Shown here: positions 11,425 to 35,045 of the stretch, one piece after another | Layout: each line of letters begins with the position of its first letter | How positions within the stretch are numbered: the stretch's first letter is position 1 | Assembly (NCBI GenBank): GCA_026706845.1 | Contig: JAPOXY010000037.1 | Span: 36,328 to 71,660 of the forward strand | Direction: 5' to 3' | Source: Gemmatimonadota bacterium | GTDB taxonomy: Bacteria; Latescibacterota; UBA2968 | Length of the DNA stretch: 35,333 nucleotides | Made by a program: the position numbers and the translations under genes | The notes under the pieces: generated by a model | Told to the model about the DNA's origin: nothing | What the model saw: the letters and a program-made list of their open reading frames with translations, nothing else | The model's database searches: none

Positions 11425-11712
11425 AAAATCCGATCCTTTTGAGTGTACAAACTATAACACTATAACAATTTATTACATTGTTCATAAGGAACGAAGTGAC
11501 CTTCTAATTTGTCTAAAACAATGTAGTTGCAAATGGGTCTGACCCGCTGACTACTGATCATCACGATTCTTACTTGATTTTTTTTTGTAAAATGATAAAT
11601 TTGGTGGACTAATTTTTGCACCATAACAGATTGTCTCCCTTCAATTTTGGGCAATCTGATTCAATTCCAATACGAAAAGCGCAACTGTCCCTTTCACCAC
11701 AGGAGGAAGTCT
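11425..11712 (+). other. 288-base leader/intergenic region upstream of the envelope operon
   Basis: No gene is called. The region is AT-rich. A 6-bp AT-rich inverted repeat (AACAAT...ATTGTT, 11464-11482) lies just after the SulP gene, and a hairpin at 11627-11658 is listed separately. An AGGAGG at 11701-11706 is the ribosome binding site for the next gene. A 64-codon minus-strand frame across the region has no recognisable features and is taken as chance. Confidence 0.4.
11627..11658 (+). promoter_or_regulatory. Leader hairpin upstream of TonB-dependent receptor gene
   Basis: CAGATTG (11627-11633) pairs with CAATCTG (11652-11658), and inside it CCC pairs with GGG after a three-base bulge. 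It sits about 55 bases before the start codon and 42 before the AGGAGG site. No T run follows, so it would be a leader structure or operator rather than a terminator. Confidence 0.35.
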
Positions 11713-14700
11713 ATGAGACGGACGAGTCTATTTTTCTTTTTCTTCATAGCTCTGGCATTCTCAGCCAGTGCTGTTTTTGCCGGATCAACCGGTAAAATTG
11801 CCGGAAAGGTCGTGGAGAAATCCACAGGTGAAACCCTGCCCGGTGCCAATGTGGTCATTGAAGGCACCACATTGGGCGCGGTAACAGATCCCGATGGCAA
11901 TTATTTCATCATCAATGTGCCGCCGGGTTCTTATACCGTCAGTGCGAGTATGGTCGGCTATCACAAAGCCACGCAAACCAATGTGCGGGTCTTTATAGAC
12001 CTGACCACAACGGTAAATTTCTCTGGTGACTACGGCCTTGTCGAAGAGACCATTGAACTGGCAGAGATCACGGTGGTTGCCGAACTCCCGGTGGTGCAAC
12101 CCGATATTTCCGCCAATGTCGCCAATATCTCCGCGCAGGATGTCGAAACCCTGCCATTGACCAGCGTGAACGAAGTCGTGCGATTAGAGGCAGGGGTTCT
12201 CGCCTCTGCCAATGGCGAACTCTCGATTCGAGGCAGCAATTTTAATGAGATCGCCTTTTCGGTCGATGGTCTGTCCATGCGCGATGGGCGCAACAACGAA
12301 CCGTATTCAACGGTGAGTTATACCTCAATCAAAGAAATGAGCGTGCAGTCGGGTGGGTTCAACGCCGAATACGGCAACGTGCGCTCGGGCCTGGTCAATA
12401 TTGTAACCAAAGAAGGCGACAAGCGACGTTACAACGGCGATGTGTTGTTGCGACACAGCGGCGCACAGCGCGATTATTTTGGTCCGTTGCCAAATCATCC
12501 CAATGGCTTTTTTTGGCGGCCATTTACAGATCCCGCTGTGAGGAACGTGGGCACCCATTCGCCCGAAAGCCCCTGGGATGTGTACACGCGGCGTCAATAT
12601 CGAGTCTGGGCCGGGTGGAATACCATTGTACGAAGATGGGCTGCCACCCCTACTGATCCGTATCACGGCGTGGGCGTGAGAGACACGGGCGCAGATGAAT
12701 CGACTTTACCAGTTGATGAACTGCAAGTTGATGATGCGGTCATCACAGAGTTGTTCGAGTGGTATCGCCGCAAAGATCTGGAAGTTCGCAATGCGGATTT
12801 CGATATCGACCTGGGTTTTGGTGGTCCCTTAATTCCGGGATTGAGCGAAAAACTGGGCGGTCTGAGGTTCTTTGCTTCGGGCAAGCGCGAGCGCAGGGCC
12901 TATATGATGCCGCGCAATATTGATGAATATGAAAACGACTGGGGCCGCGTAAAGGTCACGTCGGATATTCGCAGTAGCATGAAGTTAAGTGTCGAGGCGA
13001 TGGCAGGTGAAGAATATGGCTTGAATCCGAACAAGAGTGGCTTTCCCAACATGTGGCGCGGCAATCAGGAAATGGGTCTTAATGATGCTGACCTGATTTG
13101 GGCAAATCACCACGAGAACACGCTTCAGATCAAGCGCAATAATATCGGCCTCAGCTTTTCACATGTGTTGAGCCCCAGAACATTTTACGAGTTTCGCTTT
13201 CAGAGGATGCAATCGGACTTTTTGACCGAAAAGTATCCAGACCGCGATTTGACGGCTGTTGAAAATACCATTCCCCGCAATCCGGACTTCGCGCCTCCCA
13301 GTCCGTCTTTACAAGTTTCAGAGGTCACGCAGAACCACATCGGGTTGACGGCTGCACCCGATGGCTATTTTATGAAAAATGAAGTCTTTGTTGACGGCCT
13401 GTATTTTGGGGGACACTGGGCCAATGGACGCGACGACTCTGAAGTCGTAGCCTATACAACGCGTTTTGACATTACCAGCCAGCGCAATCAGGTCGCGCAG
13501 TTTAAGGCGGGTTTTGAATGGATCGCCAGTGATTACGATGTGAATCACGAAAATGCACAGCCTTTCTTCAAAAACAATGCGGCACCCAAATACATCTGGC
13601 AACGCACTCCAAACCAATTTGCCGGATATGTGCAAACCAAGCTCGAATTCAATGCGATGATCGCAAACTTGGGGGTGCGTTGGGATCGCTGGAATGGGAG
13701 TGGCGAATGGTGGGTTTATGAAGATTTCTCCGGTGCGTTTGGGCCTAAAATTGGCAAAGAAAATCTCGAGGAAGCACTCGATCAGGCGCCTGTTAAGACC
13801 CTGTCTTATTTAAGCCCGCGCTTGGGTATTTCGTTCCCGGTAACAGCAGATAGCAAATTGTTTTTTAACTATGGGCACTTCCGCCAGATGCTGAACCCAC
13901 ACAATCTCTTTCTCATCGATGAAATAAATACGGGTGCAGTCTCTCGGATTGGCAATCCCAATCATCCGATGCCGCGCACGATCAATTACGAACTCGGCTT
14001 TGAGCAGAATTTGTTTGATCGGTATTTGCTGCGCCTGACCGGATATTACAAGGCCAACGACGACCAGTCAATTGGTGTGGCCTACACCAATCTGGACCAA
14101 ACCGTAGCTTACAACCTTTTTGAACCCCTCAACTACGACGATATCCGGGGCTTTGAAATAACCATTAGAAAGCACAGGGGCAAGTGGTTTGGCGGATCAG
14201 TCAACTATACGTATCTGCAAACTAAGGACGGCAACTTTGGTCGGCGCCAGATATTTGAAAATCGCTTAGAGCAAGCCACTTTTGATGCGACCTCTACGCG
14301 GCACTATCAAAGCCGACCCGCCAGCCGACCCTTCGCCAGATTGTCGCTGGAATTTTACACGCCGCGCGACTTTGGTCCCCAGGTCTCTAAGTTTTATCCC
14401 CTGGGCAAGTGGGATATGTCTTTCGTGGGCCGTTGGCGAGCGGGTCAGTACAGCAACTGGTATGGGCCAGAAGGTGGAGATATCCCCGGTTTGATCAGAA
14501 ATGTCCAGTACAAGAGTATCAGGAATATGGATCTGCGCCTGACGAAGCAGTTTGCGATGATGGGCGTCAGGGCCATGTTCTTTTTAGACGTCGATAATGT
14601 GTTTAATCTCAAGCGACTCAATAGCAGTTCTGCCAACCCGGGGCTCGAAGACTGGGAATTCTATATGGTATCCCTGCATTTGCCAGAAGACACATTTGGC

Positions 14701-15069
14701 GAGTTTGAACCGCCCTATCAGTTCATTCCCGGCAATGACTCGCCCGGCAGTTTCAGAGATTACGGCACGGAGTTTGTGCCCATCGAAATTGTCAATACAG
14801 CCAGCGATTTGCCCGCCAATGGATTGCCCGGCGATGCGGAAATCACGGCTGTACTGCCCACGGGTCTCGAACCCGGCCGCCGCGTGTTGTGGTATGTTCA
14901 GGAAACCGGACAATATCACGAATATCAAAACGGAAACTGGGCGCAGGCAAATCAGGACTTTGTGAATGAAGTGCTGGACAATAAGCTGTATATCGACATG
15001 CCCAACAACGACACTATCTGGTTCTTAAACCCACTGCGCATGCGTTTGGGCTTGCGGTTCTCGTTCTAA
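11713..15069 (+). CDS. TonB-dependent receptor with N-terminal carboxypeptidase-regulatory-like domain
   Basis: The chosen start has a perfect AGGAGG 6 bases upstream and gives an 1118-residue precursor with a clear signal peptide (residues 1-23, ending VFA). Then come a CarboxypepD_reg-like beta-sandwich (about 27-105, GKVVEKSTGETLPGANVVIE...), a TonB-box-like ELAEITVVAE (115-124), the plug (about 130-235, with SIRGSNFNEIAFSVDG and SGLVNIVTKEG), and a long beta-barrel ending in Phe (LRFSF). The N-domain is the layout of SusC-like and related receptors of the FCB group. It is the first gene of a three-gene operon with a secreted protein and a PorV-like barrel. No SusD partner is present, so it is not a classic SusCD pair. 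The imported or exported ligand is unknown. Confidence 0.92.
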   Translation: MRRTSLFFFFFIALAFSASAVFAGSTGKIAGKVVEKSTGETLPGANVVIEGTTLGAVTDPDGNYFIINVPPGSYTVSASMVGYHKATQTNVRVFIDLTTTVNFSGDYGLVEETIELAEITVVAELPVVQPDISANVANISAQDVETLPLTSVNEVVRLEAGVLASANGELSIRGSNFNEIAFSVDGLSMRDGRNNEPYSTVSYTSIKEMSVQSGGFNAEYGNVRSGLVNIVTKEGDKRRYNGDVLLRHSGAQRDYFGPLPNHPNGFFWRPFTDPAVRNVGTHSPESPWDVYTRRQYRVWAGWNTIVRRWAATPTDPYHGVGVRDTGADESTLPVDELQVDDAVITELFEWYRRKDLEVRNADFDIDLGFGGPLIPGLSEKLGGLRFFASGKRERRAYMMPRNIDEYENDWGRVKVTSDIRSSMKLSVEAMAGEEYGLNPNKSGFPNMWRGNQEMGLNDADLIWANHHENTLQIKRNNIGLSFSHVLSPRTFYEFRFQRMQSDFLTEKYPDRDLTAVENTIPRNPDFAPPSPSLQVSEVTQNHIGLTAAPDGYFMKNEVFVDGLYFGGHWANGRDDSEVVAYTTRFDITSQRNQVAQFKAGFEWIASDYDVNHENAQPFFKNNAAPKYIWQRTPNQFAGYVQTKLEFNAMIANLGVRWDRWNGSGEWWVYEDFSGAFGPKIGKENLEEALDQAPVKTLSYLSPRLGISFPVTADSKLFFNYGHFRQMLNPHNLFLIDEINTGAVSRIGNPNHPMPRTINYELGFEQNLFDRYLLRLTGYYKANDDQSIGVAYTNLDQTVAYNLFEPLNYDDIRGFEITIRKHRGKWFGGSVNYTYLQTKDGNFGRRQIFENRLEQATFDATSTRHYQSRPASRPFARLSLEFYTPRDFGPQVSKFYPLGKWDMSFVGRWRAGQYSNWYGPEGGDIPGLIRNVQYKSIRNMDLRLTKQFAMMGVRAMFFLDVDNVFNLKRLNSSSANPGLEDWEFYMVSLHLPEDTFGEFEPPYQFIPGNDSPGSFRDYGTEFVPIEIVNTASDLPANGLPGDAEITAVLPTGLEPGRRVLWYVQETGQYHEYQNGNWAQANQDFVNEVLDNKLYIDMPNNDTIWFLNPLRMRLGLRFSF

Positions 15070-15079
15070 ATTCAAACGC

Positions 15080-15102
15080 AACCACATAGTTTATCTGTGG
15101 TT
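15080..15102 (+). other. Intercistronic hairpin in the envelope operon
   Basis: AACCACA and TGTGGTT form a 7-bp perfect stem with a 9-base loop in the 51-base gap between the receptor and the secreted-protein genes. Its 3' arm ends six bases before the AGGAG site of the next gene. There is no T run, so it could act as an mRNA-stabilising or translation-tuning element. Confidence 0.4.
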
Positions 15103-15120
15103 TCAACAGGAGACATTGTA

Positions 15121-17295
15121 ATGAACAGATTGTTAAAACCGCTGGTCGGAACAGCTTTTGCACTTGTGGCTCTGGTGTTCTTTGGTCAGCCAACCGAAGT
15201 GCAGGCACAGGCGGAACTAATGTGGCTGGATGTGGGCGATTATCACTATCGATACGCATCGACAGGCACAGAGCCTTCAATCACACGCCCCCCGTTTCGG
15301 GCACGTGTGAAATACTGGCCCGGTATTTATGCTCGAGAAGGTGGAACCCATGTGCGTTCACGTCACTATATTGGAGTAAAAGATTTTACCGATGAAAATG
15401 GCCAACCCTGGCCATTTAAGGTCGCCCGTGCGGGACCGCGCGTATTTGACCTGGGCGAACACTTTGCATTGCCCATGGAACTGATTGGCAAGTTTGACAA
15501 ACCCGACGTGTTTGTCGATGGGTTTCAATCTTTTTCTCGGCCCACAGTATTGACCCGCGTCGATCCTTCTATTCCATCAGATCGCATGATTGTTCGCGGT
15601 GCCCATAGCAATGTAGGCATCACATGGGAAGAGAAGATATACGCATTTTCCAATCCCTATCACGATGACTACCACATCCGGGAAATGACCTGGACAAATA
15701 CGGGCAATGTCGATGCCGATGAAGAGATCGAATTGCCCGATCAAACCGCGAACGAGATGATGTTGTCTTTTGCCGCTAAAGAGCACCTCTGGGGGCCGCG
15801 CGGGGTTACGGGCGCGGGTGTCTCGGGCACAATGTGGGATTATGTGGGCGACGGCAAGGAGCCTCTGGGCAAATGGGAAGGCATACGCGCCACGCTCGGC
15901 TGGATCGGCAATGGTACGAATGTGTCCTTCCTGAACCGACTTGGAGGACCTATCTGGCGAGGTGGACGCGGAAATGCTAACTATCGGATTACAGAAGGCG
16001 ATTCCATTGGTCGGCTCGGCGGTGCTTATATGCTGACCCGCGCGATCTTGCACGCAGATACAAGCCCATCAGATCCGACTAATGATCCTGGCCAGCCCAG
16101 GAGTACGGGCTTTCACCGCGGCGGCGACTCGATTAGCAACCCGTCGTTTGGCGATGCCGAACAGATGGTAGACACGTACCATTTTATGCACCCGGACCTG
16201 AGCTATGCCGAATATGGCAACCCGGGCACCGATGGACACTTTTTTCCACACGAAGCCGACCGTTCAGCACCGCCGGAGCCTGCGGGTCCTTTCGATGATG
16301 AATCGTGGTACGAACGCATGGGTGCGCAAACTGATGTCTCTCGCATGAGAAGTGGAGGTATGGTACCGTGGTTTGCCTTTGGCCCCTACACACTGGCTCC
16401 GGGCGAAAGTGTCAGTATGGTCTGGATTGAAGGTATGCACGGGTTGAACCGGGACGTATCTGTTGCTGTGGGCAAGGCGTACAAAGATTCTGGTTATGAC
16501 GATACACTCCCCATTACCTACAATGGGCAGACCCACACGAAGAACCGCTGGGTACTGGGCACCCGGGATTCCATCTACCAGATGATCCGCAGAGCTACTG
16601 CGAACTGGGAATCGGGTTATAATATTCCGCATCCCCCACTGCCGCCCAGAGTTTTCAATGTGCAGTCCGGTTCTGATCAAATTGTGCTTTCCTGGGATAC
16701 CTTTGCCAATGCCAACCACTCGGGTTTTGAGATCTGGCGTACGCGCAATTTTTATGAAGGCAATGTGGATGACCGCTGGGAATATCAATTGATCGCCACC
16801 CTGGGGGCAGAGGCACGCGAATACGCAGATGCGGACGTGGTGCGCGGCATCAGTTATTTCTACTATATCCAATCTGTAGGCCAGGTGAACAGCGATGGAA
16901 CGGGAATGACGCCGACAGGCAGTGTGCTGAAAAGCAGCCGGTATTATACGCAGACCTATGATCCCGCGTTTTTGAAGCGTCCGCCCGGCGGCGTAATGAG
17001 TGACGTGCGCGTTGTGCCCAATCCCTATGTGCTGGAAGCCGATCAGAATATTCGATTCCCAGACCAGCAGGACAAGCTGGCATTCTTCGAAATTCCCGGG
17101 GAATGCACCATCCAGATTTTCAGCGAACTGGGAGAATCGATTTTCACCATTGAGCACACAGACGGCACAGGGGACGAATTTTGGAACCTGACCACAGAAT
17201 CGAATCAGGTGATTACAAGCGGCATTTATTTTGCCGTGATCACAGACACTCAGACCGGCGAAAAGATAATCAAAAAATTCGTCATTATTCGTTAA
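15121..17295 (+). CDS. Large secreted protein with FN3-like domain and C-terminal FlgD/T9SS-like sorting domain
   Basis: Start chosen at the ATG 8 bases after AGGAG, giving 724 residues with a signal peptide (about 1-29, ending VQA). Residues 30-500 are not recognised; they are rich in Gly, Asp, Tyr and Trp and look beta-structured. About 505-595 is a fibronectin-III-like domain (PPLPPRVFNVQSGSDQIVLSW...FEIWRT...YFYYIQSVG). The C-terminal ~95 residues (VRVVPNPY... ending GIYFAVI...KKFVIIR) have the NPY and GIYF features of FlgD-like/T9SS type A sorting domains. It is thus likely exported to the cell surface. Its place between a TonB-dependent receptor and a PorV-like protein supports a shared surface complex. 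The function is unknown. Confidence 0.85.
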   Translation: MNRLLKPLVGTAFALVALVFFGQPTEVQAQAELMWLDVGDYHYRYASTGTEPSITRPPFRARVKYWPGIYAREGGTHVRSRHYIGVKDFTDENGQPWPFKVARAGPRVFDLGEHFALPMELIGKFDKPDVFVDGFQSFSRPTVLTRVDPSIPSDRMIVRGAHSNVGITWEEKIYAFSNPYHDDYHIREMTWTNTGNVDADEEIELPDQTANEMMLSFAAKEHLWGPRGVTGAGVSGTMWDYVGDGKEPLGKWEGIRATLGWIGNGTNVSFLNRLGGPIWRGGRGNANYRITEGDSIGRLGGAYMLTRAILHADTSPSDPTNDPGQPRSTGFHRGGDSISNPSFGDAEQMVDTYHFMHPDLSYAEYGNPGTDGHFFPHEADRSAPPEPAGPFDDESWYERMGAQTDVSRMRSGGMVPWFAFGPYTLAPGESVSMVWIEGMHGLNRDVSVAVGKAYKDSGYDDTLPITYNGQTHTKNRWVLGTRDSIYQMIRRATANWESGYNIPHPPLPPRVFNVQSGSDQIVLSWDTFANANHSGFEIWRTRNFYEGNVDDRWEYQLIATLGAEAREYADADVVRGISYFYYIQSVGQVNSDGTGMTPTGSVLKSSRYYTQTYDPAFLKRPPGGVMSDVRVVPNPYVLEADQNIRFPDQQDKLAFFEIPGECTIQIFSELGESIFTIEHTDGTGDEFWNLTTESNQVITSGIYFAVITDTQTGEKIIKKFVIIR

Positions 17296-17310
17296 GAATG
17301 GAGTAATTCA

Positions 17311-18366
17311 ATGACCAGAAAATTTCTTACTTATGTCGCGCTAAGTCTGATGTGTCTGACGCCGCTCTACGCACAGGACCCTGTGGATACGACAGATCCA
17401 GACGACCTTCCCGTGCCCGAACCGGGACAGGATCTCCCGCGCGAACGCCGCGCACAAGCGGGCTTTAAGTTTTTGAGCGTATCGCCCGATGCGCGCGCCG
17501 CCGCCATGGGCGATGCGTATTCCGCATTGAGGGTGGGGTCATCGGCGATGTTTTACAATCCCGCATCAATGGCGTATGCCACCCGCAAGTTTCAACTCTC
17601 TGCCGGGCAGATCCAGTGGATCGCAGATGTGACCTACAACATGGGCAGTGTCGCATTGAATACGGATTGGGGCGTTTTCGGGTTGTCAATGGTTGCCGTC
17701 GATTACGGCGATTTTGAACGCACCATTCGCGCAGACAACGAAAAGGGATTCCTCGATGTGGGCACGTATAGCCCATCTGCCTGGGCAATCGGACTCGGTT
17801 ATGCCCGCGCTATTACCGACCGTTTTTCAGTGGGTGGCAATATACGCATCGCCAAGCAATCGTTCGGCGATGTTCCCGTGGGCCTTGAAGGCGCATCGCC
17901 TGTAAATAAATCTTTTAGCGAGCGCTCGACCATTGTCGATTTTGGCGTACTCTACTGGACGGGATATAAGAGCCTGACACTGGCGCTGAACACGCGAAAC
18001 TTCTCTCAGGAAAACAAGTATAGCGAGGAGAGTTTTGAATTGCCGCTGACATTCCGCATGGGGTTGGCGATGGATTTGATCGATCTCACGGATATGGATA
18101 AGGATACCCATTCCATAATTCTATCGGTGGACACCGAGCGCCCGCGCGACTTTTCCGAGCAAGTCAAGGTCGGGGTGGATTATACGATTATGAAAACCCT
18201 ATCTTTGCGCGCCGGATATATAACGCCAACCGATGAACAGGGCATATCTCTGGGCGTCGGCTTTGGCCGCGATCTGGGCAGCCTCGCTTTGCGCGTGGAT
18301 TATGCGTACACCGATTTTGGCGTATTTGACGGTGTCAACCGCTTGACGCTTCAGGCGGGCTTTTAG
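17311..18366 (+). CDS. PorV/PorQ-like outer-membrane beta-barrel protein
   Basis: The 351-residue precursor has a signal peptide (1-21, ending YAQ) and an acidic Pro-rich linker. The family-typical 'GFKFLSVSPDARAAAMGDAYSAL...SAMFYNPASMAY' opening follows, then alternating strands ending in an aromatic C-terminal residue (LQAGF). In Bacteroidota PorV is the shuttle that carries T9SS substrates to the surface; PorQ/UPF0164 relatives occur widely in FCB phyla. Being directly downstream of a gene with a FlgD/T9SS-like C-terminal domain makes a substrate-carrier pairing attractive but unproven. A GGAG site lies 7 bases before the ATG. A strong terminator follows. Confidence 0.88.
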   Translation: MTRKFLTYVALSLMCLTPLYAQDPVDTTDPDDLPVPEPGQDLPRERRAQAGFKFLSVSPDARAAAMGDAYSALRVGSSAMFYNPASMAYATRKFQLSAGQIQWIADVTYNMGSVALNTDWGVFGLSMVAVDYGDFERTIRADNEKGFLDVGTYSPSAWAIGLGYARAITDRFSVGGNIRIAKQSFGDVPVGLEGASPVNKSFSERSTIVDFGVLYWTGYKSLTLALNTRNFSQENKYSEESFELPLTFRMGLAMDLIDLTDMDKDTHSIILSVDTERPRDFSEQVKVGVDYTIMKTLSLRAGYITPTDEQGISLGVGFGRDLGSLALRVDYAYTDFGVFDGVNRLTLQAGF

Positions 18367-18395
18367 ACTATTGCGATGTATTCCCCGCCATTTTG

Positions 18396-18430
18396 AAAAG
18401 GGAGCCTGTTTTTGACCGGCTCCCTTTTTT
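18396..18430 (+). terminator. Strong intrinsic terminator of the envelope operon
   Basis: An 11-bp perfect stem (AAAAGGGAGCC with GGCTCCCTTTT) closes an 11-base loop and ends in six T. It marks the end of the receptor/secreted/PorV operon. It also argues against a long N-terminal start for the next gene, whose frame opens inside this hairpin. Confidence 0.92.
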
Positions 18431-18450: not shown

Positions 18451-18484
18451 TCCCTGACCCCTACCATTCCCTGACCCCTACCAT
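18451..18484 (+). repeat. Exact tandem duplication of a 17-bp unit at a start codon
   Basis: TCCCTGACCCCTACCAT occurs twice, back to back, with no mismatch. The second copy ends with the first two bases of the ATG of the downstream membrane-protein gene. The duplication fills the place where a ribosome binding site would be, and neither copy contains a purine-rich Shine-Dalgarno sequence. Confidence 0.95.
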
Positions 18485-20453
18485 GGCCGAATCCGCACAA
18501 AACATACAGATACAAAAGCCGCTCGGCAGGGGTTTGCGCACCTATCGAACCGCTGCTGCGTCGGTCGCCATGATCCTGGTCAGTGTGCTGTGGAATGAAT
18601 GGATGCCGTATTACACATCGGGATCCAATATCAGCCGCAGCCATTTTCCCGTAGCACTCTTTTATCCCTTTTTGATATTGTGTATATGCAATTTGCTGGC
18701 AAATCATCGGCGTTCAACCTGGGCGTTGACGCGGTCGGAATTGCTGGTGGTCCTGGCTTCTGGACTGGTCGGCATCTCGGTGTCTTACGACGGGATCAGT
18801 GGGCATCTGATCGGCGTGGTAGCTGCGCCCTATTATTTTGCCTCAACGGAAAACGGCTGGACGACGTACTTACTCGAACATATCCCGCACTGGCAGGTGC
18901 CGACCAATGCGGGCGGAGAGATGACGCGGTTTTACGAGGGCGGAAAGGGAACATTCCCCTGGCGCGTATGGGTCGCACCGATATTCTGGTGGATGTGTTT
19001 TTTGGGCGCGATGGGGTTTGCGGCATTCAGCGTGGTGGTGATTTTGCGAAAGCAATGGGTGGATTACGAGCGGTTGGCATATCCGCTTGTAGAAGTGGGA
19101 ACCCTGCTGACCGAGACTGAGCCGGGTGGCACGCTGGAAAAAATGCTCCGGTCCCCGTTGTTCTGGATCGCATTTGGCCTGGTAATGGCGTTAAAGCTGT
19201 GGAATATCGGATCTTACTTTTCGCCGGCTTTTCCGCATATTTCTATTGAGGGAATGAACTGGCGGGCTTTTCCCGATTTTCCCGCATTGCCCTTTCGCCT
19301 CAGTTTTTACGCCATAGGTTTTGGCTATTTTGCACGATTAGATGTATTGTTCAGCGTGTGGTTTTTTATCGTCTTGACGGCATTTCAGATCTATGCCTCG
19401 AATATTTTTGGATACCCTCTCGGTTCATCCAGTCTGCACTGGCAAAATGAATTATTAAACTGGCAGAGCATGGGCGCACTCATTTTCCTTGCAGTGTGGG
19501 GCTTGTGGATGGCGCGCGCACATTTGAAGGCCGTATGGCGCAAAGCCTGGGACCCGAGTTGTGAAATAGATGATCGCGGAGAGTTATTGTCGTATCGCAC
19601 AGCTGTATTTGGCCTCGTACTCTCGCTCGTGTTTGCAACGTGCTGGCTGGTCGCAACCGGCATGGCGTTGTGGGTTGCGATAGTATTTCTAATTCTGGCA
19701 ATGTTGTTATTCTTGGGCCTGGCACGCGCTGTTTCTGAGCTGGGGCTGGTCTATGCCTATTATCGGTTAGAGCCAAATGACGCGGTCGTGCAGGCATTTG
19801 GATCGGCATCGATCATGGGGGTTTCGAGCATCACCGCGCTGGCATTTATGCGGGTGTTCAATTTTTTTCCCGACATCGGCAAAGGCTTTTTGATGCCGTC
19901 GTTTTCCCAGGCGGTTAAGGCCGTAGATAAGACCGTAACACCCCGGCGAATTACAGGCGTGATCTGGGCATCGCTCGCCGTGGGCTTTGTGATTTCGATT
20001 GTCAACACGCTCTACTTGAGTTATGAATACGGGGCTTATAATCTGGGAAATATGGGCCTCAAGCACGTTGGTCCGCGGGCATTTGATTTTGCGATGAACG
20101 CGATCCGTAATCCCCTGGGACTCGGAGGTGATGGCCGCGTGATGTGGGCGGGAGTTGGTGCCAGTGCGATGGCGATTTTGACTCTAATCCGTTACTGGAT
20201 CCCCGCCTGGCCGTTGCATCCAATTGGGCTGGCCATGCAAGGGAACTACGGTGTGAGTAAAACCGTATTCTCGGTATTTATTGTATGGTCAATCAAAGTT
20301 GTCGTGATGAAGATGGGCGGTGCGCAGCTATACGAAAAAGGAAAACCGTTTTTCATCGGCCTGCTGGCAGCGCAAGCATTCAGCACGGGATTGGTATTTG
20401 TCATAGATTGCATCTGGTTCCCCCTGCAGGGACACAATGTACACAACTTTTAG
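18483..20453 (+). CDS. DUF6785/DUF6784-like multi-pass membrane protein, copy A
   Basis: With the ATG in ccATGg the protein has 656 residues, matching the 655-residue second copy later in the operon; a longer frame would begin inside the upstream terminator. It has a soluble N-terminus, then about 12-14 hydrophobic segments. A conserved block, NEWMPYYTSGSNISRSHFP (about residues 38-56), precedes or opens an early helix. Another, LRKQWVDYERLAYPLVEV, lies near residue 190, and the C-terminus is PLQGHNVHNF. From memory this pattern fits the uncharacterised DUF6785/DUF6784 family; a transport role is inferred. The first gene of a tight five-gene operon, it ends 6 bases before the phosphotriesterase-like gene. 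No Shine-Dalgarno sequence is seen. It shares a large majority of residues with copy B. Confidence 0.8.
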   Translation: MAESAQNIQIQKPLGRGLRTYRTAAASVAMILVSVLWNEWMPYYTSGSNISRSHFPVALFYPFLILCICNLLANHRRSTWALTRSELLVVLASGLVGISVSYDGISGHLIGVVAAPYYFASTENGWTTYLLEHIPHWQVPTNAGGEMTRFYEGGKGTFPWRVWVAPIFWWMCFLGAMGFAAFSVVVILRKQWVDYERLAYPLVEVGTLLTETEPGGTLEKMLRSPLFWIAFGLVMALKLWNIGSYFSPAFPHISIEGMNWRAFPDFPALPFRLSFYAIGFGYFARLDVLFSVWFFIVLTAFQIYASNIFGYPLGSSSLHWQNELLNWQSMGALIFLAVWGLWMARAHLKAVWRKAWDPSCEIDDRGELLSYRTAVFGLVLSLVFATCWLVATGMALWVAIVFLILAMLLFLGLARAVSELGLVYAYYRLEPNDAVVQAFGSASIMGVSSITALAFMRVFNFFPDIGKGFLMPSFSQAVKAVDKTVTPRRITGVIWASLAVGFVISIVNTLYLSYEYGAYNLGNMGLKHVGPRAFDFAMNAIRNPLGLGGDGRVMWAGVGASAMAILTLIRYWIPAWPLHPIGLAMQGNYGVSKTVFSVFIVWSIKVVVMKMGGAQLYEKGKPFFIGLLAAQAFSTGLVFVIDCIWFPLQGHNVHNF

Positions 20454-20459
20454 AGCGCA

Positions 20460-21491
20460 ATGATTACCCGAAGAACATTTATACAACAAAGCCTCGCAAC
20501 TGCGGGTGTGCTGGCAATTGCCCCGTCGGCTTTTGCATCAAAACCACAGGTGATGACTGTAACCGGGCCGATAACACCCGAGCAGATGGGGCTCACCCTC
20601 CCCCACGAACACATCATGTCTATTTTCGGCGGACAGCCAGTCAAAGTGGCGCAATACGACGAAGAAAAATTATTCGCCAGGGTTATCCCCTATCTCAAAA
20701 TGTTAAAAGTATTTGGCGTGCAAACCATTTGTGAATGTACGGGGGCTTATTTTGGACGGCGCGTGGATTTGCTCCGGCGCATCTCACGAGAAACCGGGAT
20801 GCAAATACTGACCAATACCGGATATTTTGGCGCAGCGCACGATCGCTACGTGCCAGCACACGCCTTTGAAGAAACAGTTGATCAAATTGCCCAACGCTGG
20901 ATTGATGAGTGGGAAAACGGGATTGACGGGACAGATATTCGCCCGGGATTTATCAAAATTGGCGTTGACCCCGGCATGCCCTCTGACATAGACAAAAAAC
21001 TCATTTTGGCGGCGGGCAAAACCCATCTCAAAACGGGTCTGACAATTGTCTCGCACACAAGTGGCAGCACGGATGCGGCTGTTGAGCAGGTTGCGCTGCT
21101 CGAAGAAATGGGCGTCCATCCCGAGGCGTGGATCTGGGCACACGCACAACGCGTCAAAGATCCCGCCGACCTGACCCCCGTTGCGCAAGCAGGTGCGTGG
21201 ATCGGGCTAGATAGCATCCGCGACGAAACCCTCAATCCCCATCTCGATGCACTGCGCCATATGAGAAGATTTGGCGTTTTGCCCCGGGTTTTACTTTCTC
21301 ACGACGGAAATTCATTTGGATATGGCGACCGTCCTTTTAAGCCTTATAATGCCATTTTTGACCAATTTATTCCACTGATGCGAAAAGCGAACTTTACCGA
21401 TGAAGACATTCACCAGATCACCGTAAAAAATCCTCAAGAAGCATTTGCCATTCGGATTCGCAAAGCACAGCAAGATGACTTTGACTACTGA
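20460..21491 (+). CDS. Phosphotriesterase-family metal-dependent hydrolase, Tat-exported
   Basis: The 343-residue precursor starts with a twin-arginine motif (RRTFIQQS, Arg4-Arg5) and a hydrophobic stretch ending near AFASK. The mature part is an amidohydrolase-fold PTE-family enzyme. All binuclear metal ligands appear present: His49 and His51 (LPHEH), Lys166 (FIKIG, expected to be carbamylated), His199 (SHTS), His228 (AHAQ) and Asp282 (SHDG). PTE-like proteins hydrolyse phosphotriesters, lactones or other esters. The natural substrate cannot be inferred, and lactonase is as likely as phosphatase. Export to the periplasm fits its partner sulfatase, which also has a Tat signal. It starts 6 bases after copy A; only a weak AGAG, overlapping that gene's stop, precedes it, so translation may be coupled. 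Confidence 0.88.
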   Translation: MITRRTFIQQSLATAGVLAIAPSAFASKPQVMTVTGPITPEQMGLTLPHEHIMSIFGGQPVKVAQYDEEKLFARVIPYLKMLKVFGVQTICECTGAYFGRRVDLLRRISRETGMQILTNTGYFGAAHDRYVPAHAFEETVDQIAQRWIDEWENGIDGTDIRPGFIKIGVDPGMPSDIDKKLILAAGKTHLKTGLTIVSHTSGSTDAAVEQVALLEEMGVHPEAWIWAHAQRVKDPADLTPVAQAGAWIGLDSIRDETLNPHLDALRHMRRFGVLPRVLLSHDGNSFGYGDRPFKPYNAIFDQFIPLMRKANFTDEDIHQITVKNPQEAFAIRIRKAQQDDFDY

Positions 21492-21509
21492 CAACAACCG
21501 GAGATAATT

Positions 21510-22952
21510 ATGAACCGACGCGAGTTCATCAAACAAACTGCCGTAGCGACCGTTGCAATGCCATCAATACTTCGGGCACAGACAGATGATCGTCCCAATA
21601 TTGTATTGTTTTTGGCTGACGATATGACGTGGCGAGACTGCGGCGTATATGGCAATGCAGAAGTACAAACGCCAAATCTGGATCGCCTATCGCGTGAAGG
21701 CATGCGTTTTGATGGCTGTTTTACCTCCACGTCAATTTGCGCGCCCACCCGTCAGCAATTGTACACCGGAATGTTTCCAATACGCAATGGCGCATATCCC
21801 CAGGGGGGATTTGTGCATCCGGGTGTTAAGAGCATGGCGCATCATTTCAAAGCACTGGGCTATCGCGTTGGAATCATTGGAAAACAACACTACGGACCAT
21901 CCGAATCATTTCCCTTTGAGGTATTGAAAACAACCAGAACCAATGAATTGCTGGATTCCGATGCGTCAATCCAGGTTATTCAAGAATTCATCAATCGAGA
22001 ACCGGGACAGCCCTATTGTCTGATCGTCGCATCTCGCAATCCCCACCTGCCATATACAAAAGGGCCGCAGGACATGTACGATCCGGATAAAGTGACGATT
22101 CCACCGTATTTAATCGACACCCCGGAAACGCGAAAACGATTGGCGGCGTACTATGCCGAAATTACCGCACTGGACGCCGAGTTGGGCCGATGTCTGCAAA
22201 TCATATCGGATAACACACTCGTGGTTTTCTCCACGGAACAGGGATCAGCATTCCCCTATGGCGGCAAGTGGACGTGTTATGAAAACGGGTTGCACACCGG
22301 GCTGATCATGCGCTGGCCGGGCAAAATTGAGGCGGGTTCATCCTGCGATGCTCTCGTGCAATATGTGGATATTTTGCCAACGCTCCTACAAGTCGCAGGC
22401 GGCGATCCCGCACAAGTCGATACGGGCAAAGCAGGCGCGCCAGATGGAGGATCTGGATTTGACGGAAAAAGTTTTTGGCATCTCGTCGCAGGAAATGGCA
22501 ATCATCACCGGGATTACGTATATGGCGCTTATACCAATCGCGGTGTTCGAGACGGGACAGATTATCCGATTCGCTCGGTGCGCTCCAGAAGATATAAATA
22601 CATCGCAAATCTCAATCACGAAGGTGTGTTTCAGTGCAATGTGACGCGGTTTATGGACGAAATGGGATGGGCAGAAGCAGCCCAAAAAAATCCAGCACTC
22701 GCGCCCCGGGTACACGCCTTGCGGCATCGCCCGGCAGTGGAATTTTACGACCTGGAAAACGATCCCTACGAGTTGGAAAATTTATCTGGAGACGCCCAAT
22801 ACGCAGGTATCATGAAAGAGATGCGGACGGAACTCGATGCGTGGATGGCGCAGCAAAATGACCGTGGAATGGAAACCGAATTGGAAGCGTACGCCCATGT
22901 GAATCCAGCATCTGCAAAGTACAAACAGTATCGTGAATCCCAAAAAAAATAA
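21510..22952 (+). CDS. Sulfatase with Tat signal, N-sulfoglucosamine-sulfatase-like subgroup
   Basis: The 480-residue precursor carries a Tat motif (RREFIKQT, Arg3-Arg4) and a short hydrophobic stretch ending in LRAQ. Sulfatase features follow: Asp37-Asp38, CAPTR at 77-81 with Cys77 as the formylglycine site, and GKQH with Lys125 and His127. The block STEQGSAFPYGGKW at 241-254 has Glu243-Gln244 in place of the more common Asp-Asn/His metal ligands; EQG-type motifs occur in sulfamidase-like bacterial sulfatases. Export by Tat fits maturation of Cys77 in the cytoplasm before transport. A GGAG site lies 6 bases before the ATG, 18 bases after the phosphotriesterase-like gene. The substrate is likely a sulfated sugar or glycan, by family only. 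Confidence 0.9.
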   Translation: MNRREFIKQTAVATVAMPSILRAQTDDRPNIVLFLADDMTWRDCGVYGNAEVQTPNLDRLSREGMRFDGCFTSTSICAPTRQQLYTGMFPIRNGAYPQGGFVHPGVKSMAHHFKALGYRVGIIGKQHYGPSESFPFEVLKTTRTNELLDSDASIQVIQEFINREPGQPYCLIVASRNPHLPYTKGPQDMYDPDKVTIPPYLIDTPETRKRLAAYYAEITALDAELGRCLQIISDNTLVVFSTEQGSAFPYGGKWTCYENGLHTGLIMRWPGKIEAGSSCDALVQYVDILPTLLQVAGGDPAQVDTGKAGAPDGGSGFDGKSFWHLVAGNGNHHRDYVYGAYTNRGVRDGTDYPIRSVRSRRYKYIANLNHEGVFQCNVTRFMDEMGWAEAAQKNPALAPRVHALRHRPAVEFYDLENDPYELENLSGDAQYAGIMKEMRTELDAWMAQQNDRGMETELEAYAHVNPASAKYKQYRESQKK

Positions 22953-22968
22953 AAAATAGGAGAACTTT

Positions 22969-24405
22969 GTGTCCACAAGTAAAACAGATCAAAAAGCAGC
23001 ACCCTGGGGCGAGGGCGAACCCATTGGGCGGGATTATCCGCCGATTCCATTGCTCGAAAAGATCGCTTATGGCGTCGGCGTCCTGCCGATGAACACAAGT
23101 GTCAATTCGATCAAAAAGCTCTCAGGCCCCATTTTTAATATTACGCTGGGCATGCATCCATCTAAGGTTGGCACTGTCCTGTTGCTCTCCCGAGGCTGGG
23201 ATGCGATTACCGATCCCTTTATGGGATGGCTTTCGGACAACACAAAATCTCGCTGGGGCCGGCGCAGACCCTATCTCTTTCTGGGCGCTATTTTGACGGC
23301 CATTGGCTACGCACTCATTTTGAACGTGCCCCAAGGACTGAGTCAAGACGCACTATATGCGTATTTTATGTTTGCCAGTCTGGGCCTCTACACCTGTGTC
23401 ACCATTTTGCAAGTATCCTACAACAGTCTCGGCTTTGAACTGAGCCACAACTATCACGAGCGGACAAATATCTTTGCGTACCGCTCGTTTTTTCAGCAGA
23501 TCAGCACCATTCTCGTGGGCTATCTCTTCTATTTTTGCACACTCGATATTTTTGGCGACACCATGACGGGAGCCAAATACGTCGGCATTGGCGTTGGCCT
23601 GGTCATTTTTATATTTTTATTACCCACTGTTTTTCTCGTGCGCGAAGGCCACTCAGAACAGGCAGCTAAACAGGAAAAAGTACCCGTCGGTTGGGCGATC
23701 AAAACAACCCTGAAGACCAAACCATTCCTCATCCTGAGTAGCCTGACGGTCGTAACTATTTTTGGTGGCAATTTCACGCTGGCATTGGGACCTTATGTCA
23801 ACATCTATCACGTTGCCCAGGGAGATGTAAAATTTGGAGCCGAGATACAAGGACACGCTATTCTCATCGGAACCATCGTATCCTTCGCCGCCATTCCCGT
23901 ATTGACCTATTTGTCCTCTCGAATTGGAAAGATCAAAACCCTTGGTATTTCAATCTCCTCCCTTCTCCTCGGTTCTATTTTGAAGTGGTTCTGCTATACG
24001 CCAGCAATGCCCTATTTGCAACTCATCGTACAGCCCTTTATCCGCATCGGCGAAATGGGCTTCTGGCTCATTATTACGTCGATGAAAGCCGATATCTGCG
24101 ACTGGGATGAATGGAAAACCGGCTTTCGGCGCGAAGGCATGTACGGCGCGGCAACGGGCTGGTTTCAAAAAGTGACACAGGCGACCACATTCGCGCTCGG
24201 GCAGGGATATATTCTGGCAATCATTGGATTTGACGCTACAAAAGGTGTGGCACAAGATCCAGGCGTGATGTTCTGGATGCGCTTTCTCTTTGCCGTATTG
24301 CCCGCGATCCTGGCCGTGGCGGGATTGATCCTGTTAAAATTTTATGAAATCGACGACGAAAAAGCCAAAGAGATTAAGGCAGATCTGGATAAACGAAATA
24401 ATTGA
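22969..24405 (+). CDS. GPH-family (MFS_2) sugar:cation symporter
   Basis: The 478-residue protein is a 12-helix carrier of the glycoside-pentoside-hexuronide:cation family. The family signature is clear: RGWDAITDPFMGWLSDNTKSRWGRRRPY across residues 75-102, with Asp78 and Asp82 in the cation-site helix. The start is a GTG, supported by an AGGAGA site 5 bases upstream. The hydrophilic N-terminus (about 30 residues) and charged C-terminal tail are cytoplasmic. It lies between the sulfatase and membrane-protein copy B, with 16 bases before it and none after it. It likely imports the desulfated or hydrolysed sugar-like product made in the periplasm. That is inferred from context. Confidence 0.92.
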   Translation: MSTSKTDQKAAPWGEGEPIGRDYPPIPLLEKIAYGVGVLPMNTSVNSIKKLSGPIFNITLGMHPSKVGTVLLLSRGWDAITDPFMGWLSDNTKSRWGRRRPYLFLGAILTAIGYALILNVPQGLSQDALYAYFMFASLGLYTCVTILQVSYNSLGFELSHNYHERTNIFAYRSFFQQISTILVGYLFYFCTLDIFGDTMTGAKYVGIGVGLVIFIFLLPTVFLVREGHSEQAAKQEKVPVGWAIKTTLKTKPFLILSSLTVVTIFGGNFTLALGPYVNIYHVAQGDVKFGAEIQGHAILIGTIVSFAAIPVLTYLSSRIGKIKTLGISISSLLLGSILKWFCYTPAMPYLQLIVQPFIRIGEMGFWLIITSMKADICDWDEWKTGFRREGMYGAATGWFQKVTQATTFALGQGYILAIIGFDATKGVAQDPGVMFWMRFLFAVLPAILAVAGLILLKFYEIDDEKAKEIKADLDKRNN

Positions 24406-26373
24406 GTGAAAATCATGGCAGAGCGATTCAAACAACTCTCGGAAACAACACCCGTGCGGGCGGTGACAACGCGGTCGGTAATTGCATCGGTAGTGGTGAT
24501 CACTGCAAGCGTACTGTGGAATGAGTGGATGCCGTACTACACGTCGGGATCGAATATCAGCCGCAGCCATTTCCCCATGGCGTTCTTCTTTCCGTTTTTG
24601 ATCGCGTGTACACTCAATCTGGCATTAAACCACTTGCGGGCGGGATGGGAGCTTTCGCGGTCGGAATTGCTGGTGGTCCTGGGGTCGGGCTTTGTGGGAA
24701 TCGCGCTGGCTTACGACGGGCTGACGGGCCACTTCTTCGGCGTTCTGGCAGCCCCCTATTATTTTGCATCTGTAGAAAATGGATGGGGTTTTATACACAA
24801 CACCATCCCCGCCTGGCTCGCACCCTCAAATGCCACTGGTGAAATGACGCGGTTTTTTGAAGGCGGAGGCGGATCCCCCCCGTGGCGCGTGTGGGCAGTA
24901 CCCGTTTTCTGGTGGATGTGCTTTTTCGGCGCAATGGGCTTTGGGGTATTTTGTCTGGTCGTAATTTTGCGAAAGCAATGGGTGGATTACGAGCGTTTGG
25001 CTTATCCACTTGTCGAAGTCGCACAATCTCTGGCGGAGACAGAAAAGGGCGGCGGACTGGAAAAAACATTTCGCTCTCCCCTGTTCTGGATCGCATTTTC
25101 TCTGGTCATGCTCTTGAAATTGTGGAATATCGCGTCTTATTTTACCCCGGCATTTCCGCATATAGACATTGAACAAACACAGTGGCAACCGATTCCAGAC
25201 TTTCCCTGGATGGTAAATCGCCTGAGTTTTTACGCCATTGGATTCGGGTATTTTGCGCGCCTGGATGTGCTGTTCAGCGTGTGGTTCTTCATTATTTTGA
25301 CGGCGTTTCAGGTATATGTATTCAATATCTTTGGCTATCAAATCGGCGCGGCAACCCACCACTGGACAAGCGATGCTCTGGGCTGGCAGAGCATGGGCGC
25401 ATTGATCTTCTTATCTGCCTGGGGATTGTGGATGGCGCGCGCGCATTTGAAGGCCGTGATACGCAAGGCACTATATCCCAACTGCGAAGTTGATGATAGC
25501 GGCGAATTATTGTCCTATCGCATGGCAGTATTCGGCTTATTGGGCGCATTTGCATTTGTCTCGGCGTGGCTATATACGGCGGGCATGCCCTTGTGGGTGG
25601 TATTTTGCTTTCTCATTTTGGCGATGTTGTTATTCCTGGGCCTTGCCCGCGCCATTGCAGAGCTGGGATTGGTCTATGTGTACTATCGCATTCAGCCCCA
25701 CGATGCTGTGGTGCAGGCATTTGGTTCAAATATGGTAGGGCTTTCCGGCGTGGTGGTACTCGGGTTTATGCATGTATTTAATCAGTGGCCCGATATTGGG
25801 AAGGGATTTTTGATGCCGCCGTTCACCCAGGCGGTAAAAGCCGTGGATAAGGTCGTCAGTCCACGGCGAATTACACCAGTGCTGTGGCTGGCACTCGCAC
25901 TGGGCTTCACCATCTCAATAGTGGATACGCTGTATTTGAGTTATGAATACGGAGCCTATAACCTGGGTAATATGGGGATGAAGAAGACGGGACCCGTGGC
26001 ATTTGATTTTGTGATTACAGAAATACGAAACCCCCTGGCACCCGGCGGCAATGGCAGGGTCATGTGGGCATTTATCGGGATGGGACTGATGGCGATTTTG
26101 ACGACCGTTCGCTACTGGGTACCGTGGTGGCCCCTGCACCCGATTGGCCTGGCTATGCAGGGGAATTACGGCGTGAGCAAGACGGTCTTTTCGATTTTTA
26201 TTGTCTGGTCAATCAAAGCGGTTGTCATGAAAATGGGTGGCGTGCAATTGTACGAAAAGGGAAAACCATTTTTCATCGGCTTGCTGGCAGCACAGGCGGT
26301 GAGCACGGGCCTGGTATTTATCATAGATTGGTTCTGGTTCCCCCTGCAGGGACATAATGTGCATAATTTTTAG
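24406..26373 (+). CDS. DUF6785/DUF6784-like multi-pass membrane protein, copy B
   Basis: This 655-residue protein is a paralogue of copy A along its whole length: same NEWMPYYTSGSNISRSHFP block, same RKQWVDYERLAYPLVEV, and the same C-terminal FPLQGHNVHNF. Differences concentrate at the N-terminus and in loops (for example the IHNT versus LLEH region near residue 130). A GTG directly abuts the GPH stop codon; an ATG three codons later is an alternative start. No strong ribosome binding site is visible, so coupling to the GPH gene is likely. It is the last gene of the five-gene operon and converges on the PcRGLX-like gene with 24 bases between. Function is unknown; substrate transport is the working inference. 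Confidence 0.8.
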   Translation: MKIMAERFKQLSETTPVRAVTTRSVIASVVVITASVLWNEWMPYYTSGSNISRSHFPMAFFFPFLIACTLNLALNHLRAGWELSRSELLVVLGSGFVGIALAYDGLTGHFFGVLAAPYYFASVENGWGFIHNTIPAWLAPSNATGEMTRFFEGGGGSPPWRVWAVPVFWWMCFFGAMGFGVFCLVVILRKQWVDYERLAYPLVEVAQSLAETEKGGGLEKTFRSPLFWIAFSLVMLLKLWNIASYFTPAFPHIDIEQTQWQPIPDFPWMVNRLSFYAIGFGYFARLDVLFSVWFFIILTAFQVYVFNIFGYQIGAATHHWTSDALGWQSMGALIFLSAWGLWMARAHLKAVIRKALYPNCEVDDSGELLSYRMAVFGLLGAFAFVSAWLYTAGMPLWVVFCFLILAMLLFLGLARAIAELGLVYVYYRIQPHDAVVQAFGSNMVGLSGVVVLGFMHVFNQWPDIGKGFLMPPFTQAVKAVDKVVSPRRITPVLWLALALGFTISIVDTLYLSYEYGAYNLGNMGMKKTGPVAFDFVITEIRNPLAPGGNGRVMWAFIGMGLMAILTTVRYWVPWWPLHPIGLAMQGNYGVSKTVFSIFIVWSIKAVVMKMGGVQLYEKGKPFFIGLLAAQAVSTGLVFIIDWFWFPLQGHNVHNF

Positions 26374-26397: not shown

Positions 26398-28914
26398 TCA
26401 CTCGTCCATCCCCGCGTCTTGCAGGGCACCCAACAAATGGGGCACGCCGAAAAACAGCAGGCTCAAGTACATGGGGCTCAGTCCCACTGCGCCGCGCCTT
26501 TTGGGATCGTCGCTCCAATCCTGCGATTCAGCCAGGCGGCGCAGCAGGTGCTGACCCACCTCCAAATAGCCCCGCTCGCCTGTCAGCCTGTACGCATAGC
26601 TCAGGTGGCGGCACAGCACCCCGCCGTAGCGCTGCTTCCATGCCATTTCTGGATCGAAAACCCCAGGCCCACCGCAAAACCAATCCACAGCCCGCAGATA
26701 GCATTCGGCCACATCGGTCCTGCCTGTCAGTCGGTGCAGCAATTCGATGCCGATCATTAAATAGTGGGTCTGATACCCCTTTTGGTCGGCGTAGGACAGC
26801 ACTTGTTTACCCGCGGTAGAAGCCCCGCCCAGGGCTTTGTGCTCAGCCGGAGTAAAAGGTGCTGCGGTGCCCATTTCCACAGCCAGGGTCGTGCCTTCGG
26901 TGGCCATGCCGTAGGGTGCCTGGTCCGGCAGCCTATCGGGAGTGGAAACCTGAAAGCGCTTGTGCCAACTGCCGTCGTCGTTCTGCCCCCGGGCAATGAC
27001 CTGAAAAATTTCTTCGGCGCGCTGTTTAAAACGCGTTTTGCCCGTTAGTTCCCACAAATACAGCAGAGCGCGCAAGGTATTGGCAATGCTGCGCAAACTA
27101 AAGGAGAAACGGGGATCTTCGCTCCAGCGATAGCGCAGGAAAAATTCCCCAGCTTCTCCGAGCACCTCCAATGTACGGTGGTCGCCCGTCAAGTAGTAAT
27201 AGTCGATCCAGTTGTCGATAAAGGTGTGCGAAGCGCAAGGCTCGTCGCCAAAGTGGTCGATGCTGTGTCGGAAACAGCCGCCGACCCGATACGGCCTGAG
27301 CGGGTGGTAGTGGCAGGTATCGACATCCATCGAGTGCCGGGTCATCGCCTCACCGAGACGGAACCAGCGCCCTGCCCCGCTGCGCAAATACTGGATCCAC
27401 ACCCCGTGGCGCGGGTCCCACTCGCTGTTGCACCATCCCCACCGGCCCCGGAAGCGCCAATCGCCGGTCGATTCCTCCCAGGCCACGAGCACATCGCCCC
27501 AGTCAAAAAAACCGTGCCAGCGGTTGACTTCAATGCTGCGCGCCATCCAATCGAGGAAGCCATCAATCATGCGCTCGGAGTGCGGGAAGGCATCTACCGC
27601 GCGGACCGCAAAGCCACCTGTGACCTGGCAGTGAGCCATCCAGACGGGATCAACCGCGACGTGTGGCCAATCGAGCAAAGCCGTCAGCCGTTGAGGGGCT
27701 TCTTCGCTGGTATAGCGCTGGAAGTAATCGATGAAAAATTCCGAGGTTTTTGCCGTGCCCAGGCCATCGCTGTACACGCCTTCTCCCTCGTGCCACGCCA
27801 CCTCCTCGGCATAGCGCCTGAAATGCAGTCGTCCATCATCCGGATCTTTCCACAAAAACACGTCGATTCCCCCTTGATCCACGCCTATGGCTTTGGGATA
27901 TTCCTCGACCATATAGCGCAACGCCACCCCGACCCCGGCTTCTTCGCCCTCCAACACCGCCCACCCACCGGCCCGTTCGCCTTCTGCTATCCTCTCTGAG
28001 CGCTCGCTGCGCCGCCGCTCCAGGCGGAAGTGGCGATCCTGGCGCTGGGCCAAAAGCAGGCCTTCGTCCCGACCGAGAACGCCTTCCATACACCGATTCC
28101 CCCCCACCCGATAGCGTCGTTTTCCCGCCCAATCCACCGGGATTCGCACGGCCAGTTCCCGCAATTCGGTCTGATCTGGATCGCAGGCCACCACGACGGT
28201 GTGCAGGACCCGCAAAAAGGCGTGACCGGCAAAGGCGTAGATACGCGTCACAAAACGGAAGGGTTGATAGCCGACGTAGTGGTGCATGGGCGCCTCGGAT
28301 TCCAGGGCGCCTTCACAGCGAATCACCGCCCGCAGAGGCCCGGATTCTTCCACCTGGACCCGGTAAGCGCTTTCCCCCAGCGATGCCCGGCACATCCCGC
28401 CCATACCGTAGATCCGCCGCTGAGTCTCCCCACTTTCAAAAGCCTCGCAAATATCGGCCCAACTGTCGCCGCCCTGCGAACTCACAGCGACTTCTTCGAC
28501 AAAGCCATCGGCCTCCTGCCGCCCCAATGACACCGCGTGTACCAGGCCATAGCGCTGCCGACTCACGGCAAAGCGCAAGGGGCCGGTACACACGACAAGG
28601 CGCTCGTCGCTCTCGCTTATTTGCAGTCGATTCGCCGGAGCAGCGCGAGGGGCTTCTCCTGCATAACACAAGTGGTAAATCGCCGATCCGACCACATCGG
28701 CTTGAAAATCGACCAGGACCCACTTGATACTGCCGTCGGGCCAATGGCTCAGTGGACGACTTTGCAGATCTACAGCCCGTCCCTGAGCATCCTCCAACCA
28801 CAAATCGGCGCATTCGGCTACAGCCCCTTGTGGCAGAGGTACGCCCCGGGTCACAGGCCAGGCGTGGCGTTCGATTCCGCTCTCTTCCTGGACAGTCAAT
28901 ATTAGACGTTGCAT
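26398..28914 (-). CDS. PcRGLX/YetA-like protein (putative exo-rhamnogalacturonan-lyase-type, PL26-like)
   Basis: The 838 residues follow the three-part plan of the PcRGLX/YetA family. The N-terminal barrel opens with 'VTRGVPLPQGAV...SHWPDGSIKWVLVDFQ' (about residues 20-72). A central beta-sandwich lies around 230-430. A C-terminal alpha/alpha toroid of repeated helix pairs (for example DNWIDYYYLTGDHRTLEVLG and YLWELTGKTRFKQRAEEIF) is followed by a DDGSW segment. The Penicillium member is an exo-rhamnogalacturonan lyase; bacterial YetA proteins are largely uncharacterised, so the activity is only suggested. There is no signal peptide. An AGGAAGAGGA ribosome binding site precedes the ATG. Most sampled lines of this gene are more GC-rich (three of four at 63-72%) than a sampled neighbour line at 45%. 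Confidence 0.75.
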   Translation of the reverse strand: MQRLILTVQEESGIERHAWPVTRGVPLPQGAVAECADLWLEDAQGRAVDLQSRPLSHWPDGSIKWVLVDFQADVVGSAIYHLCYAGEAPRAAPANRLQISESDERLVVCTGPLRFAVSRQRYGLVHAVSLGRQEADGFVEEVAVSSQGGDSWADICEAFESGETQRRIYGMGGMCRASLGESAYRVQVEESGPLRAVIRCEGALESEAPMHHYVGYQPFRFVTRIYAFAGHAFLRVLHTVVVACDPDQTELRELAVRIPVDWAGKRRYRVGGNRCMEGVLGRDEGLLLAQRQDRHFRLERRRSERSERIAEGERAGGWAVLEGEEAGVGVALRYMVEEYPKAIGVDQGGIDVFLWKDPDDGRLHFRRYAEEVAWHEGEGVYSDGLGTAKTSEFFIDYFQRYTSEEAPQRLTALLDWPHVAVDPVWMAHCQVTGGFAVRAVDAFPHSERMIDGFLDWMARSIEVNRWHGFFDWGDVLVAWEESTGDWRFRGRWGWCNSEWDPRHGVWIQYLRSGAGRWFRLGEAMTRHSMDVDTCHYHPLRPYRVGGCFRHSIDHFGDEPCASHTFIDNWIDYYYLTGDHRTLEVLGEAGEFFLRYRWSEDPRFSFSLRSIANTLRALLYLWELTGKTRFKQRAEEIFQVIARGQNDDGSWHKRFQVSTPDRLPDQAPYGMATEGTTLAVEMGTAAPFTPAEHKALGGASTAGKQVLSYADQKGYQTHYLMIGIELLHRLTGRTDVAECYLRAVDWFCGGPGVFDPEMAWKQRYGGVLCRHLSYAYRLTGERGYLEVGQHLLRRLAESQDWSDDPKRRGAVGLSPMYLSLLFFGVPHLLGALQDAGMDE

Positions 28915-34925: not shown

Positions 34926-34972
34926 TGTATTACTCCAATTAGTTGCGGGAGAAGGGGAAAGCAACCTGTTAA

Positions 34973-35001
34973 AATATAGCCAATTTTTACCCGCTCTGCA
35001 A
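34973..35001 (-). promoter_or_regulatory. Promoter candidate for the DNA polymerase gene
   Basis: On the minus strand TATATT (5 of 6 to the -10 consensus) lies 17 bases downstream of TTGCAG, of which only TTG matches the -35 consensus. Transcription would begin about 40 bases before the ATG. Confidence 0.35.
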
Positions 35002-35045
35002 TGTGATGGGTTCGCAAACCGCGAAAGCATACCTCCTGCGCCTTG

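Follow-up and report, generated by a model that had tools for sequence, protein, structure and literature searches.

Five consecutive plus-strand genes in the 35,333-nucleotide stretch of DNA analyzed here (hereafter the window) may make up the inner-membrane and periplasmic portion of a locus for nutrient uptake, with OPT-fold importers and an optional sulfatase, an explanation to which we give about an even chance. It is part of contig 37 in a 5.46-Mb genome of 279 contigs, whose relatives are mostly labelled Latescibacterota, a group with large hydrolase sets and poorly known import routes. An earlier sequence-only reading had placed the five genes in one operon, and the coordinates confirm its intergenic gaps of 6, 18, 16, and 0 bases.

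The first gene, DUF_A (18483..20453), encodes a DUF6785-DUF6784 membrane protein (Pfam E-values of 3e-107 and 1e-19) with an OPT fold predicted from models of DUF_B and of a distant paralogue. Its mechanical open reading frame starts at 18393 (TTG), and we set the start at the ATG at 18483 because conservation with relatives begins there. It is followed by a PTE-family hydrolase with predicted Tat export (20460..21491), a sulfatase (21510..22952), a symporter of the MFS_2/GPH type (22969..24405), and DUF_B (24406..26373), a second DUF6785-DUF6784 membrane protein with a predicted OPT fold. The Pfam cut-offs were exceeded for DUF6785 (bit scores of 359.6 for DUF_A and 356.0 for DUF_B, cut-off 25), DUF6784 (71.0 and 72.3, respectively, cut-off 26.4), PTE, Sulfatase with SGSH_C, and MFS_2. 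Whereas DUF6785 has 48 matches in the genome (some cut by contig ends) and sulfatases number at least 151, the PTE, MFS_2, and PcRGLX families were each found once. The PcRGLX-like (exo-rhamnogalacturonan lyase-like) protein, which carries three PcRGLX Pfam domains, is encoded by a convergent accessory neighbour on the minus strand (26398..28914) that adjoins DUF_B in most, not all, sister species. The searchable literature yielded no papers on DUF6785, on DUF6784, or on the five-gene combination. Further along the window, a gene for a family B DNA polymerase (32799-35030) was observed in this bacterial genome.

In order to place DUF_A and DUF_B, for which the PDB holds no solved structure related to DUF6785 by sequence, an AlphaFold2 model of DUF_B was built from an alignment of 42 sequences, nearly all from its own genome. 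The model (mean pLDDT 91.6, pTM 0.92) retrieved two PDB entries with E<0.001, both of barley Yellow Stripe 1 (YS1; PDB 7wst/7wsr), with TM values of 0.61-0.69. A second model, led by a distant DUF6785 paralogue in a 15-member alignment without the A/B clade, reached a pLDDT of 80.5 and matched the same two entries and no others with E<0.001; the two alignments have some members in common, so this is a partial replicate. Over both models the YS1 matches had TM values of 0.60-0.69 and E-values of about 1e-7, and the next matches lay near TM 0.1. YS1 is a homodimeric, proton-driven symporter (PMC9691689).

At the sequence level the likeness is faint. The predicted fold covers the whole DUF6785-DUF6784 protein (about 650 residues), but identity to YS1 is 11-14% and the Pfam scan gave neither DUF_A nor DUF_B a match to PF03169 (OPT). 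Some other full-length DUF6785 proteins were retrieved by whole-genome scans with PF03169, with E-values (about 1e-4 to 9e-4) that miss the cut-off, and ordinary hmmscan of PF03169 against the 42 DUF6785 members gave a single match (E 0.33). A profile built from two OPT-like proteins of the phylum aligned with that of DUF6785 over 131 columns, at a probability of 7%. Given this weak sequence support, we claim a predicted OPT-like fold and not proven OPT membership: the DUF6785-DUF6784 proteins are, by model, remote relatives of the OPT transporters that serve uptake in plants and fungi. They differ from these in being bacterial, in their dozens of copies per genome, and in their linkage to TonB receptors. 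DUF_A and DUF_B are very likely inner-membrane carriers. The same whole-genome scans also retrieved two proteins of 683-685 residues matching the OPT model with E-values of 5e-13 and 7e-9 (L157:994-3042 and L158:823-2877, respectively), the former without a Pfam match by ordinary hmmscan; these possibly represent another unrecognised OPT-like family.

Upstream of the five genes, on the same strand, lies a three-gene cassette. It encodes a TonB-dependent receptor with CarboxypepD_reg and Plug domains (11647..15069), a secreted protein with a weak C-terminal match to the T9SS sorting domain CHU_C (15097..17295; 22.6 bits, cut-off 27), and a PorV/FadL-like outer-membrane barrel (17311..18366) with sub-threshold Toluene_X/PorV matches; the positions of the latter two genes are conserved. 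The Pfam matches of the receptor (CarbopepD_reg_2 and Plug) are those of a SusC-like TonB-dependent receptor. As in polysaccharide utilisation loci of the SusCD type and in other nutrient loci with a TonB receptor, a receptor and its secreted partner stand beside hydrolases and an inner-membrane carrier. However, we found no SusD family member by Pfam in the next two genes; a PorV-like barrel takes the place of SusD, and the recurring inner-membrane carrier is DUF6785. Directly upstream of the cassette, a gene for a SulP-family sulfate permease with a STAS domain (9652-11424) is conserved in the genus, including species without an intact sulfatase.

The association of the cassette with DUF6785 recurs across the genome. 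We found ten complete cassettes (receptor, FlgD/CHU_C-like, and PorV-like genes) with a visible next gene, possibly an undercount because the receptor profile was built from the five cassettes adjoining DUF6785. In five of the ten, including that of the window, a DUF6785 gene follows directly on the same strand, where a simple model predicts about 0.1, and four of these five are followed by two DUF6785 copies. Of the 64 phylum genomes, 59 contain the family, with 5 to 60 candidates per genome in this class at first look (at most 19 being scored) and 0 to 9 matches per genome in the other classes. A third close DUF6785 relative (58%) lies in a different conserved run (L039:1-19401) with genes that by eye are Gfo/Idh/MocA, aminotransferase-like, and phosphodiesterase/sulfatase-like.

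The enzyme encoded beside DUF_A belongs to the phosphotriesterase family (PTE, PLL lactonases, PHP), as indicated by its match to the family profile (E-value 6.9e-49) and a complete binuclear metal site (HxH, Lys, His, His, and Asp), in which the lysine aligns with that of the Sulfolobus-type enzymes. It differs in its predicted Tat export and scores far below the curated-subfamily cut-offs. Its Tat signal reaches 17.2 bits against an NCBIfam cut-off of 16.7, and the genome encodes its own TatC; the Tat and metal motifs read earlier from the sequence are confirmed for this enzyme. It is most likely a lactonase or esterase. Relatives outside the genus (41-61%) were considered as a guide to its substrate and set aside, their neighbours (by eye biotin-type, SDR, and enolase-superfamily) having no common theme. 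For the symporter (Pfam MFS_2 4.7e-68), no second MFS_2 gene was found in the genome, and the nearest solved structures are MelB and MFSD2A; it scores 230 bits against a cut-off of 27 for the broad MFS_2 family and 175.7 against 231.35 for the GPH subfamily TIGR00792.

DUF_A and DUF_B are 71% identical over 656 columns and have in common both of the strings cited earlier as evidence that they are paralogues. In a tree they form separate clades with full support, and the B clade takes in a sequence from another genus (G009), which dates the duplication to before the genus arose. The dN/dS values relative to the window are about 0.015-0.08 for DUF_A and DUF_B and 0.07-0.16 for the PTE and GPH genes. 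The pair is thus an old duplication under strong purifying selection. These two features, the homodimeric state of YS1, and the fact that the genome's four close DUF6785 pairs (<6 kb) all sit behind a receptor cassette could be read as signs that DUF_A and DUF_B transport only as a heterodimer, an idea compatible with the uptake locus. We nevertheless regard it as somewhat unlikely: the two genes are not adjacent in one genus member (G021), and the genome shows no excess of DUF6785 pairs closer than 6 kb (4 seen, 3 expected). Another family of the class likewise has tandem DUF6785 pairs, there without the receptor cassette.

Comparison with relatives revealed two stable pairs, DUF_A-PTE and GPH-DUF_B. 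The PTE gene occurs once per genome and always beside DUF_A in all 11 genomes of the genus, with a gap of 6 bases in 10 of them, and GPH and DUF_B stand together in every genus genome where both are visible. In G021 the two pairs are located in separate places, and in G009 PTE, GPH, and DUF_B stand together; both lack the sulfatase. Gene co-occurrence elsewhere had been proposed as a check on the operon. The outcome was mixed, as the full set was found in a single genus only, one member of which has it split and lacks the sulfatase, and the other genus (G009) has three of the five genes. The proposal of dedicated inner-membrane carriers is supported, as DUF_A and DUF_B are kept with PTE and GPH in same-genus genomes and are strongly constrained. 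A functional constraint on the five-gene layout is clear.

The sulfatase, by contrast with its neighbours, is an optional and dispensable part of the operon. It is a member of the S1 sulfatases by fold family and CxPxR motif (nearest solved members S1_8A and human SGSH), yet far from any characterised member. Its formylglycine motif (C-A-P-T-R) is present as had been reported, whereas the reported Tat motif, at the start MNRREFIKQ...LRAQ, is a fit judged by eye only, making export probable. Among the 11 genus genomes the gene is intact in six, interrupted by four different large deletions in G013, G014, G015, and G016, and absent from G021, with neighbours intact and no close intact copy found elsewhere in these five genomes. 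Although these are metagenome assemblies, each deletion has left a scar of its own, with undamaged sequence on either side. Sulfatase remnants persist between PTE and GPH at L128, L129, L130, and L131, a small natural decay series in an otherwise intact operon, and at L133 (G020) about 1 kb of extra DNA with two small ORFs separates an intact sulfatase from GPH. Near DUF6785 genes, sulfatases are at background density, with 26 in 697 kb (19 to 25 expected) and 11 of 46 DUF6785 genes having one within 5 kb (about 31-38% expected). The deletions and this background density led us to reject the sulfatase as a core part, and inferring the substrate from it should be avoided.

These observations bear on the pathway proposed originally, an obligate one in the periplasm, whose PTE-like enzyme and sulfatase would have one sulfated ester or lactone as their common substrate and whose product the carriers would take up. 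Short gaps, adjacency, the probable export of both enzymes, the SulP-type permease just upstream of the receptor, and purifying selection on the intact sulfatases (dN/dS 0.06-0.11) would all fit. But because the sulfatase has been destroyed in sister species and is no denser than background near DUF6785, joint de-esterification and desulfation is not supported, and with PTE-GPH-DUF_B lacking a sulfatase in G009 we consider it quite unlikely. A dedicated uptake locus, on the other hand, is supported.

Such a locus might instead serve a siderophore-like metal chelate, as do the plant YS1 relatives, with receptor, OPT-fold importers, and a PTE-family hydrolase that opens the chelator. The fold match to a metal-phytosiderophore transporter and the TonB-dependent receptor upstream are in its favour. 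We hold this to be very unlikely, however, given that OPT proteins carry peptides too, that the 48 DUF6785 matches in one genome lie near many kinds of enzymes and suggest diverse organic substrates, and that the GPH symporter, the sulfatase, and the PcRGLX-like lyase hint at saccharide or glycoside substrates. That the genes are chance neighbours without a common pathway, as might be read from the whole set having been found in one genus only and being split in one member, is highly improbable given the short gaps, the order conserved in ten species, and the retention of PTE, GPH, and both DUF genes while the sulfatase between them decays.

Under the nutrient-uptake explanation, the receptor, its secreted partner, and the PorV-like barrel (11647-18366) would bring a compound across the outer membrane. 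The Tat-exported PTE-family enzyme, probably acting as a lactonase or esterase, would open or trim it in the periplasm, and the two DUF6785 proteins, with their predicted OPT proton-symporter fold, together with the GPH-type symporter would move this compound, or what is made from it, into the cytoplasm. In some species the sulfatase would be an extra that broadens the range of substrates. We infer the direction of transport, the proton coupling, the order of these steps, and the PTE chemistry. Counting against the explanation are the faint sequence likeness to OPT, the separate location of the two halves in G021, and a terminator-like hairpin with a T-run that stands between cassette and operon, after the PorV gene and before DUF_A (18396..18430, plus strand; fold -23.1 kcal/mol, with z -4.7 for the stretch around it). 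The hairpin is kept in 7 of 8 aligned genus sequences, the eighth (G021) having a different hairpin and T-run. It may thus act as a terminator or attenuator, either keeping the outer-membrane genes apart from the inner-membrane ones or setting the ratio of the two.

In summary, the operon appears to be one of several uptake loci that span the outer and inner membranes and are built around DUF6785, a putative transporter family. We tentatively propose, at a little short of an even chance, that the DUF6785-DUF6784 proteins are an undescribed bacterial branch of OPT-fold symporters, which has grown to dozens of copies in this Latescibacterota class and serves as the inner-membrane partner of TonB-receptor/PorV-like cassettes, often paired and possibly as heterodimeric paralogues. 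If DUF6785 proteins are OPT-fold symporters, a family accounting for nearly 1% of the genes in this genome would gain a testable role, and the OPT superfamily would gain a large bacterial branch tied to TonB-dependent uptake.
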